Shown one piece after another: positions 3,127 through 25,083 of a stretch of 27,663 nt of DNA. Each line of letters starts with the position of its first letter. Position 1 is the first letter of the stretch. The position numbers and the translations under genes are program-made. Origin of the DNA: a virus. Where the stretch lies: the IMG/VR virus record IMGVR_UViG_3300033984_000289, positions 1 through 27,663 of that record; one strand, given 5' to 3'. The notes under the pieces are model-generated. The model was not told the origin of the DNA. It did not search any database and was given only the letters and a program-made list of their open reading frames with translations.

Positions 3127-3700
3127 TCTAGATGTTATATTCTTATTAAAGTTGATAGACGAACAATATGATATTTCTCCATTATGTGAGGGAAGTATGA
3201 AGATTGATTCTGTCTATCAATCTTTAGTAAGAAAAGGGCTTATAACAAAAGATGATGAAAAGCTCACGTTAATAGGCAAAGATTTATTAGAATTTGTAGA
3301 TGCTAAGAGCACTGCAAAGATAATAAGAAGAAAGCCTGCTACAACAGATTTTGAAGAATGGTGGAAGACTTATCCAGGTACTGATTCATTTGAGTATAAG
3401 AATAAGAAGTTTACAGGTACTAGATCTATTAGAAAGGGTAAAGATGAATGTAGACTGAAATTTGATAAGATATTATTAGAAGGAGAATATACAGCTGCAC
3501 AGCTGATAGGTGCTCTTAATTATGAACTTTTACAGAAGAAAGAAAGTTCTATTGATACCAACAGTAATAGAATGACATTCATGCAAAATAGTGTCACCTA
3601 TCTGAACCAAAGAGCTTTCGAAGCTTATATTGAATTAATTAATGATGGAGCTGCAGTAGTTGTAGCACCACAAAAACCAACAGGAGGTACTGATATTTAG
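3071..3700 (+). CDS. Winged-helix replication protein, possible helicase loader
   Basis: Residues about 20-77 look like a winged helix-turn-helix, ending in the segment SLVRKGLITKDDEKLTLIGK. The second half begins with FEEWWKTYPG (94-103), which resembles the conserved Trp/Tyr-Pro segment in C-terminal domains of phage primosome proteins (replication protein O or DnaT-like). It continues with helical sequence and ends in a flexible Pro/Thr/Gly tail. A DNA-binding domain plus a primosome-like domain just upstream of a DnaB-type helicase fits a loader or initiator. The fold assignment comes from reading motifs and is moderate; the loading role is inferred from neighbours. Confidence 0.6.
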   Translation: MKLNIEPQQFEELIKRGYNLDVIFLLKLIDEQYDISPLCEGSMKIDSVYQSLVRKGLITKDDEKLTLIGKDLLEFVDAKSTAKIIRRKPATTDFEEWWKTYPGTDSFEYKNKKFTGTRSIRKGKDECRLKFDKILLEGEYTAAQLIGALNYELLQKKESSIDTNSNRMTFMQNSVTYLNQRAFEAYIELINDGAAVVVAPQKPTGGTDI

Positions 3701-3703
3701 ATT

Positions 3704-3907
3704 ATGGAAACGCCAAAAGAAAAAGCAGAAGAATTAGTTTATAAATTTTATAACAAACAAACTAATATCAATCAATGGGGAGTTTCTGATATGCAAAAAG
3801 AATTTGCATTAATAGCAGTTGATGAGATTATTAATTTATTAACTAATGATATAAATTCAATAGTCAATTATTGGTTTGAAGTTAAAAAAGAAATAGAGCT
3901 ATTATGA
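3704..3907 (+). CDS. Hypothetical helical protein, 67 aa
   Basis: This is a small, mostly helical, charged protein beginning METPKEKAEELVYKFYNK. The layout, with an N-terminal helix, a QxGV segment and two further helices, recurs in small orphan proteins of Bacteroidota and their phages as I recall it. No function is known to me. It starts 3 bases after the preceding stop and overlaps the next ORF by ATGA. Confidence 0.65.
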   Translation: METPKEKAEELVYKFYNKQTNINQWGVSDMQKEFALIAVDEIINLLTNDINSIVNYWFEVKKEIELL

Positions 3908-4008
3908 AAGAATTTTTTGAAACAATTAACGAATACCCATGGACAACATTTTTTGTCTTTTTAATGATCATTTCTATTGTATCAGTTTTTAAAATTGATA
4001 ACAAATGA
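3904..4008 (+). CDS. Very small single-span membrane protein, 34 aa
   Basis: This tiny ORF has ATGA overlaps at both ends: its ATG with the previous stop, and its TGA with the helicase ATG. That double coupling is the main reason to call it. Residues 15-29 (TFFVFLMIISIVSVF) form one hydrophobic helix, flanked by an acidic N-terminus and a short basic tail (KIDNK). The function is unknown. It is the second small membrane protein in this replication block. Confidence 0.6.
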   Translation: MKEFFETINEYPWTTFFVFLMIISIVSVFKIDNK

Positions 4009-5069
4009 GTTTTGAATTATTAAATGCAGAAGTTAACAAAGGCCTAGGTGATTTCAATAGAGGTATACCAATGGGCTTTGATAGGCTTACTAGATATGTA
4101 GGTATTCGTAAGGGTATGTATTATTTGATAGGTGGTAACACAGGATCAGGTAAGACATCTTTTATTGATGATGCATTTGTTCTTAATCCTGTTGATTGGG
4201 CTATGTCCAAAGAAGGAATTGCTTCAGGTATTAAGGTGAAGGTGTGGTATAGGTCCATGGAGAGAAGTAGAACATACAAGATGGCCAAATGGGTATCTCG
4301 TAAAATATTTCTAGACCAGGGTATAATTATTCCTGTAGGTAAAATCTTGGGTTGGAATGAGAAGATGACTAAAGATGAGCATGATCTGTTTCTTTATTAT
4401 AAAGATTATGTAGAACAGCTCAGTGAGATAGTCACCATCATAGATGGTCCAGAGAATCCTGTAGGTATAGCAAAAGAACTAAAAGCTTATGCTGAAGCTA
4501 ATGGTAAAATAGAACAGTTAGATCAATGGAATAAAATATATGTTCCTAATGACCCAACACAAATTACCATGGTGGTTGTAGATCACATTGGTCTTCTTAA
4601 AACTACCAAAGATCAACCAACTAAAAAGGATGCTATTGATAAAATGTCTGATGAACTTAGATATGCTAGAGATTTCTATGGATATAGTCCTGTTGTTGTA
4701 AGTCAGTTTAACAGAAGCATTTCTAATCCATCTAGGATAAAGAATGGTGATGTAGAACCTCAGTTAGAAGATTTTGCAGATAGCTCAAGCACACAGAATG
4801 ATGCTGATGTAGTTATGGCCTTATTTGATCCTATGAGATATAAAGTGGCAGATCCTTCTGGATATGACCTAGATAAATTAAAAGATCAATTTGGTGCTAA
4901 ATACTTTAGATCCTTGAGACTAATCAAGAATTCATATGGTGAGGATGACGTGAGAATTGGACTAGCATTCCTAGGTGAATTAGGAATATTTGCTGAGATG
5001 CCTCGTAAAAAAGATATAACTGATGATGATTATAGAAGAATTACAGATAAAAGCTTTTTTCTTAAGTAA
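4005..5069 (+). CDS. Replicative DNA helicase, DnaB-type (SF4)
   Basis: This RecA-fold hexameric helicase should unwind DNA ahead of the fork. It has Walker A (GGNTGSGKTS, residues 43-52), a conserved RSMER element (83-87), Walker B (ITMVVVDHIGLL, with D193) and a motif-4-like SQFNRS (233-238). A final acidic stretch, TQNDADVV, matches the DnaB C-terminal core. At 354 aa it lacks the N-terminal primase-interacting domain of bacterial DnaB (about 470 aa), as in several phage helicases. The C-terminal segment (PRKKDIT...KSFFLK) is duplicated downstream of the next gene at 5838-5930, showing that the mobile endonuclease gene sits at the 3' end of this gene. The start overlaps the previous stop. 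Confidence 0.93.
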   Translation: MSFELLNAEVNKGLGDFNRGIPMGFDRLTRYVGIRKGMYYLIGGNTGSGKTSFIDDAFVLNPVDWAMSKEGIASGIKVKVWYRSMERSRTYKMAKWVSRKIFLDQGIIIPVGKILGWNEKMTKDEHDLFLYYKDYVEQLSEIVTIIDGPENPVGIAKELKAYAEANGKIEQLDQWNKIYVPNDPTQITMVVVDHIGLLKTTKDQPTKKDAIDKMSDELRYARDFYGYSPVVVSQFNRSISNPSRIKNGDVEPQLEDFADSSSTQNDADVVMALFDPMRYKVADPSGYDLDKLKDQFGAKYFRSLRLIKNSYGEDDVRIGLAFLGELGIFAEMPRKKDITDDDYRRITDKSFFLK

Positions 5070-5084
5070 ATAATATCAATAATG

Positions 5085-5116
5085 TTTGGTAGTTTGTAAA
5101 AGATACCGTAACTTTG
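5085..5116 (+). promoter_or_regulatory. Bacteroidota-type promoter for the GIY-YIG gene
   Basis: TTTG at 5085-5088 and TAACTTTG at 5109-5116 match the Bacteroidota -33/-7 consensus (TTTG and TAnnTTTG) with a 20-base spacer. Transcription should begin several bases downstream, within the A/T-rich leader before the ATG at 5134. A private promoter is typical of mobile intergenic endonuclease genes. It is the best match to the consensus in the window. Confidence 0.75.
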
Positions 5117-5133
5117 TAATAAAATTTTATATT

Positions 5134-5838
5134 ATGAAGATAGGTATCGTTTACACACTCTCACATCCTATAACTAAAAAAGTTGTATACATAGGAAAAA
5201 CAATCCATACATTAAAAGATAGATTATACGGTCATATTGGTGACAGTAAAAGGTATAATAGAAAAATCTGTAAATGGATAAGTAAATTAACTTCTGAAGG
5301 ATTACTTCCATTAATTGAAGAATTAGACTCTTCATCTGAGAAAGATTTAGCTAGATTAGAAATATTCTATATTGAGCTATTTAAAACTTGGGGATTTGAC
5401 TTAAAAAATCATACTAATGGTGGAGAAGGATTGATAGGTTTTAATCATTCAGAAAAATCAAAAAGATTAATGTCTATGAAAAGAATTGGAGAGAAAAATT
5501 CTTTTTATAATAAAACTCACACACAAGAGACAAAAGATAAAATATCATTATCTAAAAAAGGTAAAAAAATGTCTGAGGAGTTTTGTAAAAAAAGAAGTGA
5601 CTACATGAAAGCAAATCCTGTAACAAAAGAAACTTATCAAAAGATAGCAGAAATCAATAAAATAAAAATTGGTCAATATGATCTTGATATGAATATTATA
5701 AAGATACATGATTCAGCTGCAGATGCATGTAGAGATATGCCTGAGTTATCAACTGGACACATATGTAGTTGTTGTAAAGGTAAAAGAAAAACACACAAAG
5801 GGTTTGTGTGGAAATATCATGAACTTAAAAACAAATAA
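5134..5838 (+). CDS. GIY-YIG homing endonuclease with NUMOD motifs
   Basis: This free-standing homing endonuclease is predicted to cut a related, unoccupied site and promote its own copying. The GIY-YIG nuclease domain shows GIVY (residues 4-7), VYIGKT (18-23), the catalytic-type Arg in LKDRLYGH (R30) and a Glu-bearing helix with NGGEG (95-99). Residues about 104-150 carry NUMOD3-like Ser/Lys-rich DNA-binding segments (HSEKSKRLMS, TQETKDKISLSKKG). The C-terminus from about 179 resembles NUMOD1 (GQYDLDMNII ... GFVWKYHE). The start chosen is the ATG at 5134; a TTG extension to 5086 would run through the promoter. The gene lies between the helicase gene and a second copy of the helicase C-terminal coding sequence, and its TAA overlaps the ATG of that remnant. 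Confidence 0.93.
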   Translation: MKIGIVYTLSHPITKKVVYIGKTIHTLKDRLYGHIGDSKRYNRKICKWISKLTSEGLLPLIEELDSSSEKDLARLEIFYIELFKTWGFDLKNHTNGGEGLIGFNHSEKSKRLMSMKRIGEKNSFYNKTHTQETKDKISLSKKGKKMSEEFCKKRSDYMKANPVTKETYQKIAEINKIKIGQYDLDMNIIKIHDSAADACRDMPELSTGHICSCCKGKRKTHKGFVWKYHELKNK

Positions 5839-5930
5839 TGTTAGGTCTGTTTAAAGAATTGCCTAGAAAGAAAGACATCACAGACGCAGATTATGAATCA
5901 ATTACAAATAAGAGTTTCTTTCTTAGATAA
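5838..5930 (+). pseudogene. Displaced duplicate of the helicase C-terminus, 30 codons
   Basis: The 30-residue frame starts at an ATG overlapping the endonuclease stop (TAATG). From residue 3 its last 28 residues align without gaps to the last 28 of the helicase ending at 5069, with about 20 of 28 identical; shared blocks are PRKKDITD and KSFFL. The nucleotide sequences are clearly more diverged than a fresh duplication. It is best explained as a 3' fragment of a helicase gene left behind or carried along when the endonuclease gene inserted. Whether it is still translated is unknown; the overlapping start would allow it. Confidence 0.85.
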
Positions 5931-5960: not shown

Positions 5961-6644
5961 ATGAAAACAACAAATTATTCAAAATTCCTATTCTCTAAAG
6001 AAAACAGAGAAATTAGAACAAAAACAGTCTTAGCAATTAAAGACTCAATGACTAAATTTGGATTTATTCCAGGTAGACCAGTATTAATTACAAAAGAATG
6101 GGTGATCATTGATGGTCAACACAGATTCTTAGCAGCTAAAGAACTTGGTATCTCAGTAGAGTTTGAAATTGTAGAAGGAAATTACATTGACAAAATGATT
6201 CTTTTAAATTCTACACAATCAAATTGGACTTTAGAAGATTACGTAAATTCATATGCACAACAGAATGTTGATTGCTACAGAAAGCTTTTGAAATTCAAAG
6301 ATAAATATGAATTAAATCTTTCTTGCTCAATCGTTCTTTTATTTGGTTCAGGTGTAAAAACTGCTGATATTAGAAAAGGAGAAGTTCTTAAACAAAATCC
6401 TAATGCAGATCGAATGGCAGAATATGTTTTAAACTGTAGTACAATATCTTACAACAAAGATCAAAAGTTTGTTAGAGCAATTGCAGCAGTGTATGATAAG
6501 CTAACAAGACCTCAATTGATAAAATTAAGATCAAGATTGATCGTTGTTCCAGCTTTATCTAATTCAAGTGATTTTGTTATAGCCTTTGAAAACATTATCA
6601 ATAAAGGTAAAAGAGGAGATTACAAAGTGAAATTAAGTAGATAA
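5961..6644 (+). CDS. ParB/Srx-fold nuclease-like protein
   Basis: The N-terminal half contains the ParB/sulfiredoxin-fold signature. There is a strand-helix start (KDSMTKFGFIPGRPVLIT), then VIIDGQHRFLAAKELG (residues 48-63), whose DGQHR element is the phosphate-binding or catalytic loop of ParB-like proteins. The rest (about 80-227) is helical and basic. ParB-like folds in phages occur in nucleases, NTP-binding proteins and transcription regulators, so the exact activity is open. It begins a run of DNA-metabolism genes after an A/T-rich leader (AATCAATTAAACATG) and is separated from the next ATG by only 2 bases. Confidence 0.8.
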   Translation: MKTTNYSKFLFSKENREIRTKTVLAIKDSMTKFGFIPGRPVLITKEWVIIDGQHRFLAAKELGISVEFEIVEGNYIDKMILLNSTQSNWTLEDYVNSYAQQNVDCYRKLLKFKDKYELNLSCSIVLLFGSGVKTADIRKGEVLKQNPNADRMAEYVLNCSTISYNKDQKFVRAIAAVYDKLTRPQLIKLRSRLIVVPALSNSSDFVIAFENIINKGKRGDYKVKLSR

Positions 6645-17000: not shown

Positions 17001-17039
17001 AGTTTTGTCCCAAATTTATTATATCTTTGGGACGAAACT
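17001..17039 (+). promoter_or_regulatory. Promoter-operator element with 14-bp inverted repeat, upstream of HNH gene
   Basis: Bases 17001-17014 and 17026-17039 form a 14-bp inverted repeat (one G-T pair) around an 11-base loop. Within it lies the -7-type box TATCTTTG (17022-17029). From 17003 to 17029 the sequence matches bases 22381-22407, upstream of recA, at 22 of 27 positions, including TTTTGTC at the left end and TA..TTTG at the right. The TTTG elements start 22 bases apart in both. This is best read as a phage promoter with a repressor or activator site. As RNA it could also serve as a 3' hairpin for the rIIB transcript. Confidence 0.6.
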
Positions 17040-17052
17040 TAATTATAAACAT

Positions 17053-17442
17053 ATGGCAAAGAGAGTGTTAGTCCCAAAGACAAGATGTGCAGGTAGCATG
17101 AGTGAAGCTGCATTCTGGTCATTTATCAGAAGTGCTTTGAGACAAAAGAGCAGATGGTGGAAACCTATATCAGTATGTAAATTAAATGCACGTAGAGATT
17201 TCAAAGGTGTTAGTAGAAGACAAAAATACGAATACCAATGTAAGAAGTGTAAAACTTGGACTACTGAAAAGAATATTAATGTAGATCATATTATACCAGC
17301 AGGAAGCTTAAATTGTGCACAAGACTTACCACTATTTGTGGAGAGACTATTCTGTGAACAAGATAACTTACAGGTATTATGTACTACATGTCACGATAAG
17401 AAAACCTTAAAAGAGAAACAAGCTAAAAAGAAAACATTATGA
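17053..17442 (+). CDS. HNH endonuclease
   Basis: The HNH core is VDHIIPAGS (His-containing first strand) followed by FVERLFCEQDNLQVLCTTCH DKKT-type sequence, with Asn and the final His of the beta-beta-alpha-metal fold. Two CxxC pairs (YQCKKCKTW and LCTTCHDK) bind a structural zinc. The basic N-terminus (KRVLVPKTR, QKSRWWK) suits DNA binding. At 129 aa it is a compact phage HNH protein, either a free-standing homing nuclease or a packaging or repair nuclease. The ATG at 17053 was chosen over a TTG at 17005 that lies in the promoter hairpin. The stop overlaps the next ORF by ATGA. Confidence 0.88.
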   Translation: MAKRVLVPKTRCAGSMSEAAFWSFIRSALRQKSRWWKPISVCKLNARRDFKGVSRRQKYEYQCKKCKTWTTEKNINVDHIIPAGSLNCAQDLPLFVERLFCEQDNLQVLCTTCHDKKTLKEKQAKKKTL

Positions 17443-24463: not shown

Positions 24464-24677
24464 GCTATTCTTTACATCAATAAATGATATATGTAAGAAA
24501 TGTGGGGGGTATAGATTTGCCCCCTACAATTCTAATACATCAGCTACAGTGAGACTTTGTCATTGTACACAGATATCAAAAGAAGAACTTATAATGAAAG
24601 CAATGAAAACAGTATTTTTTAATGATCCACCAGGAGATAGATCAAGTAGTCATAAAATAGATGATGATGAAGTGTAA
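24453..24677 (+). CDS. Small zinc-binding-type protein, 74 aa
   Basis: Two Cys-containing elements, ICKKCGGYRFAPY (14-26) and RLCHCTQ (34-40), could form one zinc site. A helix (KEELIMKAMKTVFF) and an acidic tail follow. It overlaps the MazG-like gene by 11 bases and the next gene by 17. It is not otherwise recognised. Confidence 0.6.
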   Translation: MQNKLFFTSINDICKKCGGYRFAPYNSNTSATVRLCHCTQISKEELIMKAMKTVFFNDPPGDRSSSHKIDDDEV

Positions 24678-25083
24678 AACATGTGGAAAGAATTCTGATG
24701 GAGAATATTGTTTTCAACATAAAGCTAGAAAGCCCTTATCAACTGGTAAGGGTTTTTCTACTAAAATGTCTGGTATTTCAAGCATAAAGTCCAAAAAAGC
24801 TGTTAATGACGGACATATCATACAAAGAGAATTCTTTTTATCTATATGGAAGAAAAGAAAGCACCATTCAGAAGTGAGTGGAACCTATTTAGGATCTGAA
24901 CCTATGAGTACATATTTTCACCATATACTAGCTAAAGAAAAATACCATGAAGCTTGTTTAGATGAAGAAAATATTATACTTTTGACACTTGAAGAACATT
25001 CTAACGTTGAAAATGATATGTATAGATATGAGGAAGTTAATAAAAGACGCAATAGTCTCAAAAATAAGTATAATATACTTTGA
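24661..25083 (+). CDS. Zinc-finger plus HNH-like endonuclease
   Basis: The N-terminus has a CKTCGKNSDGEYCFQH zinc element (residues 5-20) and a basic linker. The second half, TYFHHILAKEKYHEACLDEE followed by NIILLTLEEHSNVEND, resembles the HHxLpKxxyp...eNiilL...H layout of phage HNH/NinG-like recombination endonucleases, with the paired His and the final His at fixed spacing. I read it as a small HNH nuclease, possibly a Holliday-junction or recombination enzyme, next to recA. The start may be any of three tandem ATGs (24661, 24664, 24667). Confidence 0.65.
   Translation: MMMKCKTCGKNSDGEYCFQHKARKPLSTGKGFSTKMSGISSIKSKKAVNDGHIIQREFFLSIWKKRKHHSEVSGTYLGSEPMSTYFHHILAKEKYHEACLDEENIILLTLEEHSNVENDMYRYEEVNKRRNSLKNKYNIL

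Follow-up and report, generated by a model that had tools for sequence, protein, structure and literature searches.

A Recurring GIY-YIG Endonuclease Cassette That Probably Brings Its Own 3' End into a Phage Replication Helicase Gene

Organization of the Helicase Locus

The window analysed here (the whole stretch of 27,663 nucleotides, positions 1 to 27,663 of the IMG/VR virus record IMGVR_UViG_3300033984_000289) contains a DnaB-type helicase gene whose C-terminal coding segment occurs twice, once at the end of the gene itself and once more behind a gene for a predicted GIY-YIG homing endonuclease. A preliminary description, made from the letters of this DNA, had placed the endonuclease at the helicase 3' end with the original end displaced behind it, and this inserted cassette and second helicase end are confirmed to the base, as are the coordinates of the three open reading frames (ORFs) concerned. 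Hereafter the end of the helicase gene itself is called the live end and the second copy the displaced end, and compared loci are designated by L and a number. The features are as follows.

4005-5069, plus strand: helicase gene (DnaB-type; DnaB_C match, E 2.9e-15)
4005-4982, plus strand: helicase body (codons 1-326), native to the recipient phage and grouping with the endonuclease-free L005, L007 and L008
4983-5069, plus strand: live, foreign helicase C-terminus of type A, 28 codons and stop, 87 bp; left end of the cassette
5070-5133, plus strand: spacer with a candidate promoter
5134-5838, plus strand: GIY-YIG homing endonuclease gene, 705 bp, with NUMOD3 and I-TevI-like DNA-binding parts
5814-5843, plus strand: right end of the cassette, without a cargo ORF in the window
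5838-5930, plus strand: 30-codon ORF containing the displaced end
5844-5930, plus strand: displaced original helicase C-terminus, 87 bp
5961-6644, plus strand: ParB-like gene (phrog_12305, 3e-26)

The cassette thus defined covers 4983-5843 (861 bp), is placed between helicase codons 326 and 327 and in the window consists of the foreign 28-codon helicase end, the candidate promoter and the endonuclease gene. The ParB-like gene lies directly 3' of the helicase gene in L005, L007 and L008 (gap 29-30 bp). Relatives of the window helicase among phage records, crAss-like phages included, are 23-33% identical to it. AlphaFold models were too poor for use (mean pLDDT 54 for the helicase and 59.5 for the endonuclease).

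A short ORF of a family with the pattern ..ALIAVDE..VK.EIE.L was found by eye 5' of the helicase gene (3704-3907), and the same family forms a tandem pair in L026 and L067 at about 4.5-5.0 kb. Two small ORFs elsewhere in the window (17005-17442 and 24661-25083) have HNH-nuclease-like Cys/His patterns, also by eye.

The Two Helicase Ends

Over their last 28 residues the two copies can be aligned gap-free and are identical at 20 of 28 positions, just as had been described, and the strong nucleotide divergence claimed for them amounts to 69% identity. Nine of the 28 codons are the same, 11 differ synonymously and 8 change the amino acid; across cassettes the two ends differ by 9-12 synonymous and 8-9 amino-acid changes per 28 codons. 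A protein search of the window recovered the second C-terminus at E 6e-9, so that the resemblance of the two ends is not a matter of chance. Furthermore, a de novo search for repeated ORF ends in 96 sequences (the window and 95 loci, leaving out the repeated-contig loci L082-L085, L087 and L088 and also L091 and L092) gave as its ten best matches the pair of helicase and displaced ends, one per cassette locus.

The 30-codon ORF had been equated with the displaced end. This is true from 5844 onward; homology first appears at Leu326/Gly327 (4980/4983), which leaves the ATG at 5838 outside the original gene. Likewise, the TAATG overlap between the endonuclease gene and this ORF, which had been thought to permit translation of the fragment, is present, but apart from the window it occurs only in the closely similar L002 and L081, and it therefore probably arose by chance rather than as a gene start conserved across loci. 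In four other loci (L044, L045, L061 and L062) the sole ATG is the second codon of the displaced end.

The Endonuclease and the Spacer

Among nine members of the endonuclease family, PF01541 (GIY-YIG) was found in five (best 8.6e-6) and NUMOD3 in all nine. The window endonuclease has no PF01541 match in Pfam; it matches the homing endonucleases of phrog_314 at 5.5e-19 over residues 1-229. In addition, the endonuclease profile matches the DNA-binding domain of I-TevI (PDB 1i3j, E 0.0018). The gene is present in 14 of 104 helicase loci, always at one site, with its start 38-68 nt past the helicase stop codon. By its domains and this present/absent pattern the enzyme is assigned to the GIY-YIG homing endonucleases of the I-TevI/seg type. 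Its C-terminal codons read ELKNK in the window versus ...KYY and stop in 7 relatives. A genome scan for further relatives gave 27 loci, all distant, at most 63% identical over 27 residues.

The spacer contains a candidate promoter, TTTG (5085-5088) and, after a gap of 20 nt, TAACTTTG (5109-5116), which we take to be of the Bacteroidota type. The spacing between TTTG and TAACTTTG, counted by eye, is identical across the live-end types A-D described below. On its own, TANNTTTG shows no enrichment in the window, with 36 occurrences against 39 expected, so it is position and conservation that mark this element as a candidate promoter. A repeat-like motif, TTTGGTA...TACC, lies at 5085-5107, 5' of the endonuclease gene, and is present in types A-D; with one match in the window versus 0.1 expected, it could be a promoter or an operator.

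Comparison with Endonuclease-Free Loci

A helicase scan of viral contigs gave 253 loci, and among the best 80 (78-99% protein identity) 9 carry the endonuclease and 71 have a single helicase end; such counts come from the best 80 matches of each scan and are not population frequencies. The 104 helicase loci considered here comprise 85 loci and 19 new ones found among 89 later loci (L104-L192). In the endonuclease-free L005 the helicase ends exactly in the displaced protein sequence, and its end is 92% identical in DNA to the displaced end of the window versus 70% to the live end. Moreover, the gap between the helicase and ParB-like genes in L005 is 30 bp, equal to the gap behind the displaced copy. 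The prediction that endonuclease-free relatives have one C-terminus, attached directly to the helicase and closest to the copy at 5838-5930, therefore holds.

Comparisons of cassette loci with near endonuclease-free genomes are given below as DNA identities of, in this order, the left 600 bp, the live end, the displaced end and the next 250 bp.

Window and L005: 92, 70, 92 and 99%
L001 and L005: 95, 70, 97 and 100%
L004 and L011: 93, 60, 99 and 98% (right side 105 bp)
L045 and L057: 85, 67, 97 and 99%
L044 and L029: 96, 68, 100 and 75%
L062 and L056: 96, 75, 95 and 50%

The displaced end of L044 is 100% identical to the end in both L029 and L080. The right flank is matched at 98-100% in four of eight cassette loci (the window, L001, L004 and L045) and more weakly in the others (75-76% in L044, about 50% in L003, L061 and L062), which limits a clean empty site with both flanks matched to some of the loci; the DNA 3' of the helicase gene varies among these phages. 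Live and displaced copies of one genome show 64-72% identity. In 10 of 11 cases, by contrast, the displaced copy agrees at 89-100% with the helicase end of a relative lacking the endonuclease (the exception is L089, with 72%). The displaced end of the window is a mosaic, resembling L010 in nt 1-39 (38/39) and L005 in nt 40-87 (48/48).

A second C-terminus accompanies the endonuclease in 11 of the 14 loci that have it versus none of the 90 loci without it, which were searched to 2,500 bp downstream (9 of the 90 have less than 1,200 bp there). A separate 30-codon ORF behind the helicase of relatives without the endonuclease, which the preliminary description had named as the result that would speak against a displaced end, was likewise absent from these 90 loci.

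A Recurring Family of Cassettes

Scans of viral contigs with the endonuclease gave 13 contigs, and scans with its most distant member gave five more, so that together with the window 19 contigs carry it. A helicase end lies directly upstream of the endonuclease in 18 of the 19 (L278 has only 81 bp upstream), and in all 18 with enough sequence this upstream frame is a complete helicase C-terminus with its own stop codon. The live ends are of four types.

Type A: the window, L001-L004, L012, L081 and L086
Type B: L044, L045, L061 and L062
Type C: L089
Type D: L090 and L274-L277

The displaced end is intact in 11 of the 19 cassettes and a short remnant in seven, and none is clear in L278. In L012 and L086 the endonuclease runs into the last eight codons of the displaced end (NKSYFLRE), and in L090 and L274-L277 a remnant ending in FLNK is fused to the end of the endonuclease, this match being short and weaker. 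The inserts measure 861-1096 bp. In 7 of the 11 cassettes with a displaced end, 209-255 bp between the endonuclease and that end hold a small ORF of one of four kinds, 56-77 aa long, whose start codon is lost in L062; the window, L002, L081 and L089 are without such a cargo ORF. The four kinds gave no Pfam match above the cut-off. Variants of one 64-residue cargo ORF occur in L003 (type A) and in L045 and L061 (type B), which indicates that cargo has been exchanged between cassette types. Visual inspection of the junctions showed no target-site duplication, since the sequence to the left of the cassette is native and the last bases on its right side are part of the cassette itself (GTT|GGA and ATT|GGT in L062, for example). 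Compared across these contigs, the cassette is to be regarded as a recurring element with fixed ends and not as a one-off.

Horizontal Movement and Boundaries

Any two live ends of type A, or of type B, agree at 98-100%, with 99-100% among the eight type-A loci, and the helicase bodies joined to them differ by up to 18% (type A) and 23% (type B). In L044 versus L062, identity is 77% in the body (300 bp), 100% in the live end and spacer, 98% in the endonuclease and 87% in the displaced ends; in the window versus L012 it is 82% in the body, 99% in the live end, 98% in the spacer and 90% in the endonuclease. At the codon-327 junction the change is abrupt, with identities per 30 bases of 23 and 21 before it and 30, 30 and 30 after it for L044/L062, and 21 and 23 before and 30, 29 and 30 after for the window and L012. 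This left-hand jump falls at one and the same codon in types A and B. On the right, L003 and L045 are identical at 15 of 15 positions before the displaced end and at 12 of 15 after it. In the same-type pairs L044/L062 and L045/L061, 14-15 of 15 persists about 30 bases past the junction, so the right end is sharp only in L003 versus L045 and L061.

The helicase-body tree was built by a quick method, with SH-aLRT support only, from 83 of 85 helicase bodies (L089 and L090 were too short; the 19 later loci stand outside it). A single clade is rejected both for type A (AU p 5e-4) and for type B (p 4e-5), the four type-B members are scattered, each on a branch of its own with endonuclease-free phages nearby, and the tree calls for 8 changes of state. 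At the level of sequence comparison, the identity profiles and the tree demonstrate that the cassette reached several helicase lineages by horizontal transfer, moving as one piece whose left end is fixed, and they support the earlier proposal that endonuclease, promoter and new 3' end arrived together from another phage.

As to the source of the foreign ends, those closest to type A are found in L068, the nearest relative lacking the endonuclease (78-82%), and in L191, L016, L025 and L048 (76%), and those closest to type B in L046 (87-89%), L067 (86%) and L026 (82%). L016, L025 and L191 have an HNH-like endonuclease behind the helicase and a similar start of the spacer (...AATAATATTTGGTAGT), and the type-A end may derive from an HNH-like locus of this kind. 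L046, which has no endonuclease, has a chimeric end, the first 54 nt being 98% identical to type B and the last 33 nt 91% like the natives versus 73% like type B. Such an end is as expected from loss of the element, of which it is likely the scar, and simple gene conversion would also fit.

Proposed Mechanism and Alternative Explanations

The locus is very probably explained by a splicing-independent, exon-replacing homing element that brings its own helicase 3' end. The cassette has the order replacement helicase 3' end, promoter-like spacer, GIY-YIG endonuclease, variable small-ORF region (7 of 19) and right end. From the sequences we infer cleavage, transfer in co-infection, expression and homing: during co-infection the endonuclease would cut a cassette-free helicase gene near codons 326/327, and repair from the cassette-bearing genome would copy the whole cassette in, as in intron homing, leaving the target gene's own 3' end displaced downstream. 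The host gene would survive through the recoded, protein-compatible end and splicing would play no part, while the divergence of the live end probably guards against cutting and against recombination with the displaced copy. Later deletion of cargo and displaced copy would leave an apparently ordinary free-standing endonuclease behind the helicase. Co-conversion on the left side is usual in homing. Here it is almost absent, since L062 keeps the native codon before the junction, and the mosaic displaced end of the window fits co-conversion on the right; such a one-sided pattern points to a cut at the insertion site itself or on its right-hand side. The near absence of left-hand co-conversion nevertheless weighs against the homing element, as do the blurred right boundaries of the same-type pairs, the right flanks that match well in only four of eight loci and the 8 of 19 cassettes that have no intact displaced copy.

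An unlikely alternative starts from an ordinary free-standing endonuclease: in a single past event it would have co-converted the end of the helicase gene, the right junction being formed illegitimately, and its later spread would be plain recombination of flanking DNA among phages rather than homing of a discrete element. Free-standing phage endonucleases beside genes with local gene exchange are described in the available parts of two papers (PMC2988022, PMC10448857), HNH-like and LAGLIDADG endonucleases occur within 1.6 kb behind the helicase without a displaced end, the displaced copy of the window is a mosaic and the right boundaries of same-type pairs are not sharp. What counts against it is that plain recombination should leave boundaries at varied positions within the helicase body, yet in types A and B the left boundary falls at an identical codon even though the backgrounds are divergent. 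In-place tandem duplication of the helicase end followed by divergence would also place similar copies on both sides of one gene, but the similarity of the displaced ends to endonuclease-free relatives, in 10 of 11 cases far above that to the partner in the same genome, and the occurrence of the live copy in distant phages make this reading barely credible; the same holds for an independent small gene, of which the sequence searched behind the helicase in the 90 endonuclease-free loci shows none.

The intron-like position and the GIY-YIG gene would suit a group I or other intron, whose splicing would join the body to the displaced end and so yield a second version of the C-terminus, and in L048, from the same phage family, an SF2 helicase gene is interrupted and has a GIY-YIG gene within it. 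Permissive Rfam searches of the window and L044 gave no intron family, which proves little because the intron-like control L048 gave none either. What makes an intron very improbable is the complete upstream frame with stop codon in 18 of 18 cassettes and the displaced copy that is a short remnant in 7 of 19 and not clear in L278, so that joining of body and displaced end cannot be needed; a self-splicing intron was rejected on these grounds (displaced part missing or truncated in 8 of 19). An intein was rejected too, as the helicase stop codon precedes the endonuclease start, and so was an integrase-type element that restores a gene end, given an insert of 861-1096 bp with the endonuclease and at most one further ORF, of 56-77 aa. 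It is a different matter whether the displaced copy is kept for a function, be it as the source of a translated peptide, as another possible C-terminus of the helicase or as the matched arm on the right side in a further round of homing. Its frame is intact in 11 of 19 cassettes, and start codons are at hand in TAATG (the window, L002, L081) or at the second codon (L044, L045, L061, L062); against this, the loci share no start-codon position, the copy is lost or truncated in 8 of 19, and recent insertion explains its high identity to relatives. A retained function is accordingly considered improbable, and the exon-replacing homing element remains the preferred reading.

Other Endonucleases and Generality

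The helicase 3' region is a hotspot of endonucleases: within 1.6 kb of it, the 104 loci have 14 GIY-YIG, 3 HNH-like (L016, L025 and L191) and 8 LAGLIDADG genes (L018, L022, L024, L039, L040, L043, L192 and a partial one in L048), the HNH-like label being given from motifs by eye, as Pfam gave no HNH match. The helicase end of L048 (about 2043-2129) is 100% identical to those of L016 and L025, its body 84%; it is followed by the LAGLIDADG fragment and then by the GIY-YIG gene in the interrupted SF2 helicase gene (3131-3934), an interruption that is probably an intron undetected by Rfam. Distant GIY-YIG relatives also interrupt the large terminase gene, according to annotation, in L095, L101 and L093 (Enterococcus phages BC611 and EH93P1 and Staphylococcus phage PH15).

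The end-repeat search was extended to 166 loci of other endonucleases (the best 80 HNH-like, 6 GIY-YIG of the L090 type and the best 80 LAGLIDADG, some on contigs seen before) and gave no gene-end duplication around an endonuclease; what it returned instead were repeats in L229 and weak matches in L272, L331 and L332. The distant GIY-YIG loci L013, L048 and L053 had no gene-end duplication. In the 11 phage-record loci L093-L103 the search matched just one pair of GIY-YIG-like stretches, in L100, and these do not belong to the end of a host gene. Among the loci covered, the architecture was thus seen at this helicase only.

Whether discrete, precisely bounded exon-replacing elements, which carry exchangeable cargo and hop between divergent phages, give homing endonucleases of phages a third route into essential coding sequences besides introns and inteins, and decay by loss of cargo and displaced end into some "intergenic" endonucleases, including the HNH-like ones here, is evenly balanced. 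If this is true, part of the free-standing phage endonucleases behind genes with odd, divergent ends would be relics. The cassette itself illustrates how a selfish gene can settle within the coding region of a replication gene with no need for splicing, by carrying the end of that gene along, and it warns that even core replication genes may have foreign ends. The empty site, the intact, cargo-less and collapsed cassettes and the likely excision scar can be aligned within one family of uncultured phages, which makes the proposed life cycle testable, and the signature of a divergent gene end, an endonuclease and a second copy of the end can be searched for.

Comparison with Known Systems

The I-TevI/td group I intron shares with the cassette the GIY-YIG, NUMOD3 and I-TevI-like DNA-binding modules and a precise site in conserved coding sequence, but the cassette carries a 3' coding segment and splicing is not needed. 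Prophages and islands such as e14 in icd rebuild the 3' end of the gene into which they integrate and leave the old end at the far boundary, by means of an integrase. The cassette likewise restores the gene end and has the old end at its far boundary; unlike them, its only sizeable gene is the endonuclease.

For T4-like phages, the available part of a review describes intron homing, free-standing homing with co-conversion and endonucleases splitting genes whose products reassemble (PMC2988022). As with the seg GIY-YIG enzymes covered there, the cassette's endonuclease lies beside an essential replication gene and would be expected to spread by double-strand-break repair with co-conversion; however, seg genes lie between genes, or a gene is split into reassembling pieces, whereas the cassette lies inside the coding sequence, whose 3' end it replaces (PMC2988022). 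The helicase-cassette architecture is not described in the available parts of PMC2988022, PMC10448857 and PMC2993671, and searches of the open-licence literature, judged by titles and the opening lines of abstracts, gave no phage case, which is not proof of absence.

The closest likeness is to the mobile ORFs of fungal mitochondria that form gene hybrids, which the available text of PMC3630166 reports for atp6 of Allomyces macrogynus, atp6, atp9, cox2 and nad3 of Glomus sp., atp9 of Rhizopus and cox2 of Mortierella. As far as that text goes, in both the fungal and the phage systems an endonuclease gene is accompanied by an in-frame fusion of the resident gene to a C-terminus of foreign origin, the native C-terminus is displaced downstream and is closest to that of an element-free relative, and the inserted and native ends are diverged in DNA and conserved in protein (PMC3630166). 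Duplicated atp6 and cob ends adjoining endonuclease ORFs are also noted in part of another paper (PMC6279837), and the fungal cases, as given in the accessible portions of both, stem from few mitochondrial genomes (PMC3630166, PMC6279837). The cassette differs in belonging to phage genomes, in targeting a replication helicase and in being recognized from its DNA; in addition, one family occupies the same site in 19 contigs, with two types scattered on the tree of the target gene, and some members have a small ORF between the endonuclease and the right end. The cassette thus works like the fungal mitochondrial mobile ORFs without being a member of them, as it comes from virus records and its helicase has crAss-like relatives. 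The architecture is already known from fungal mitochondria, and the phage replication helicase would be a new setting for it.
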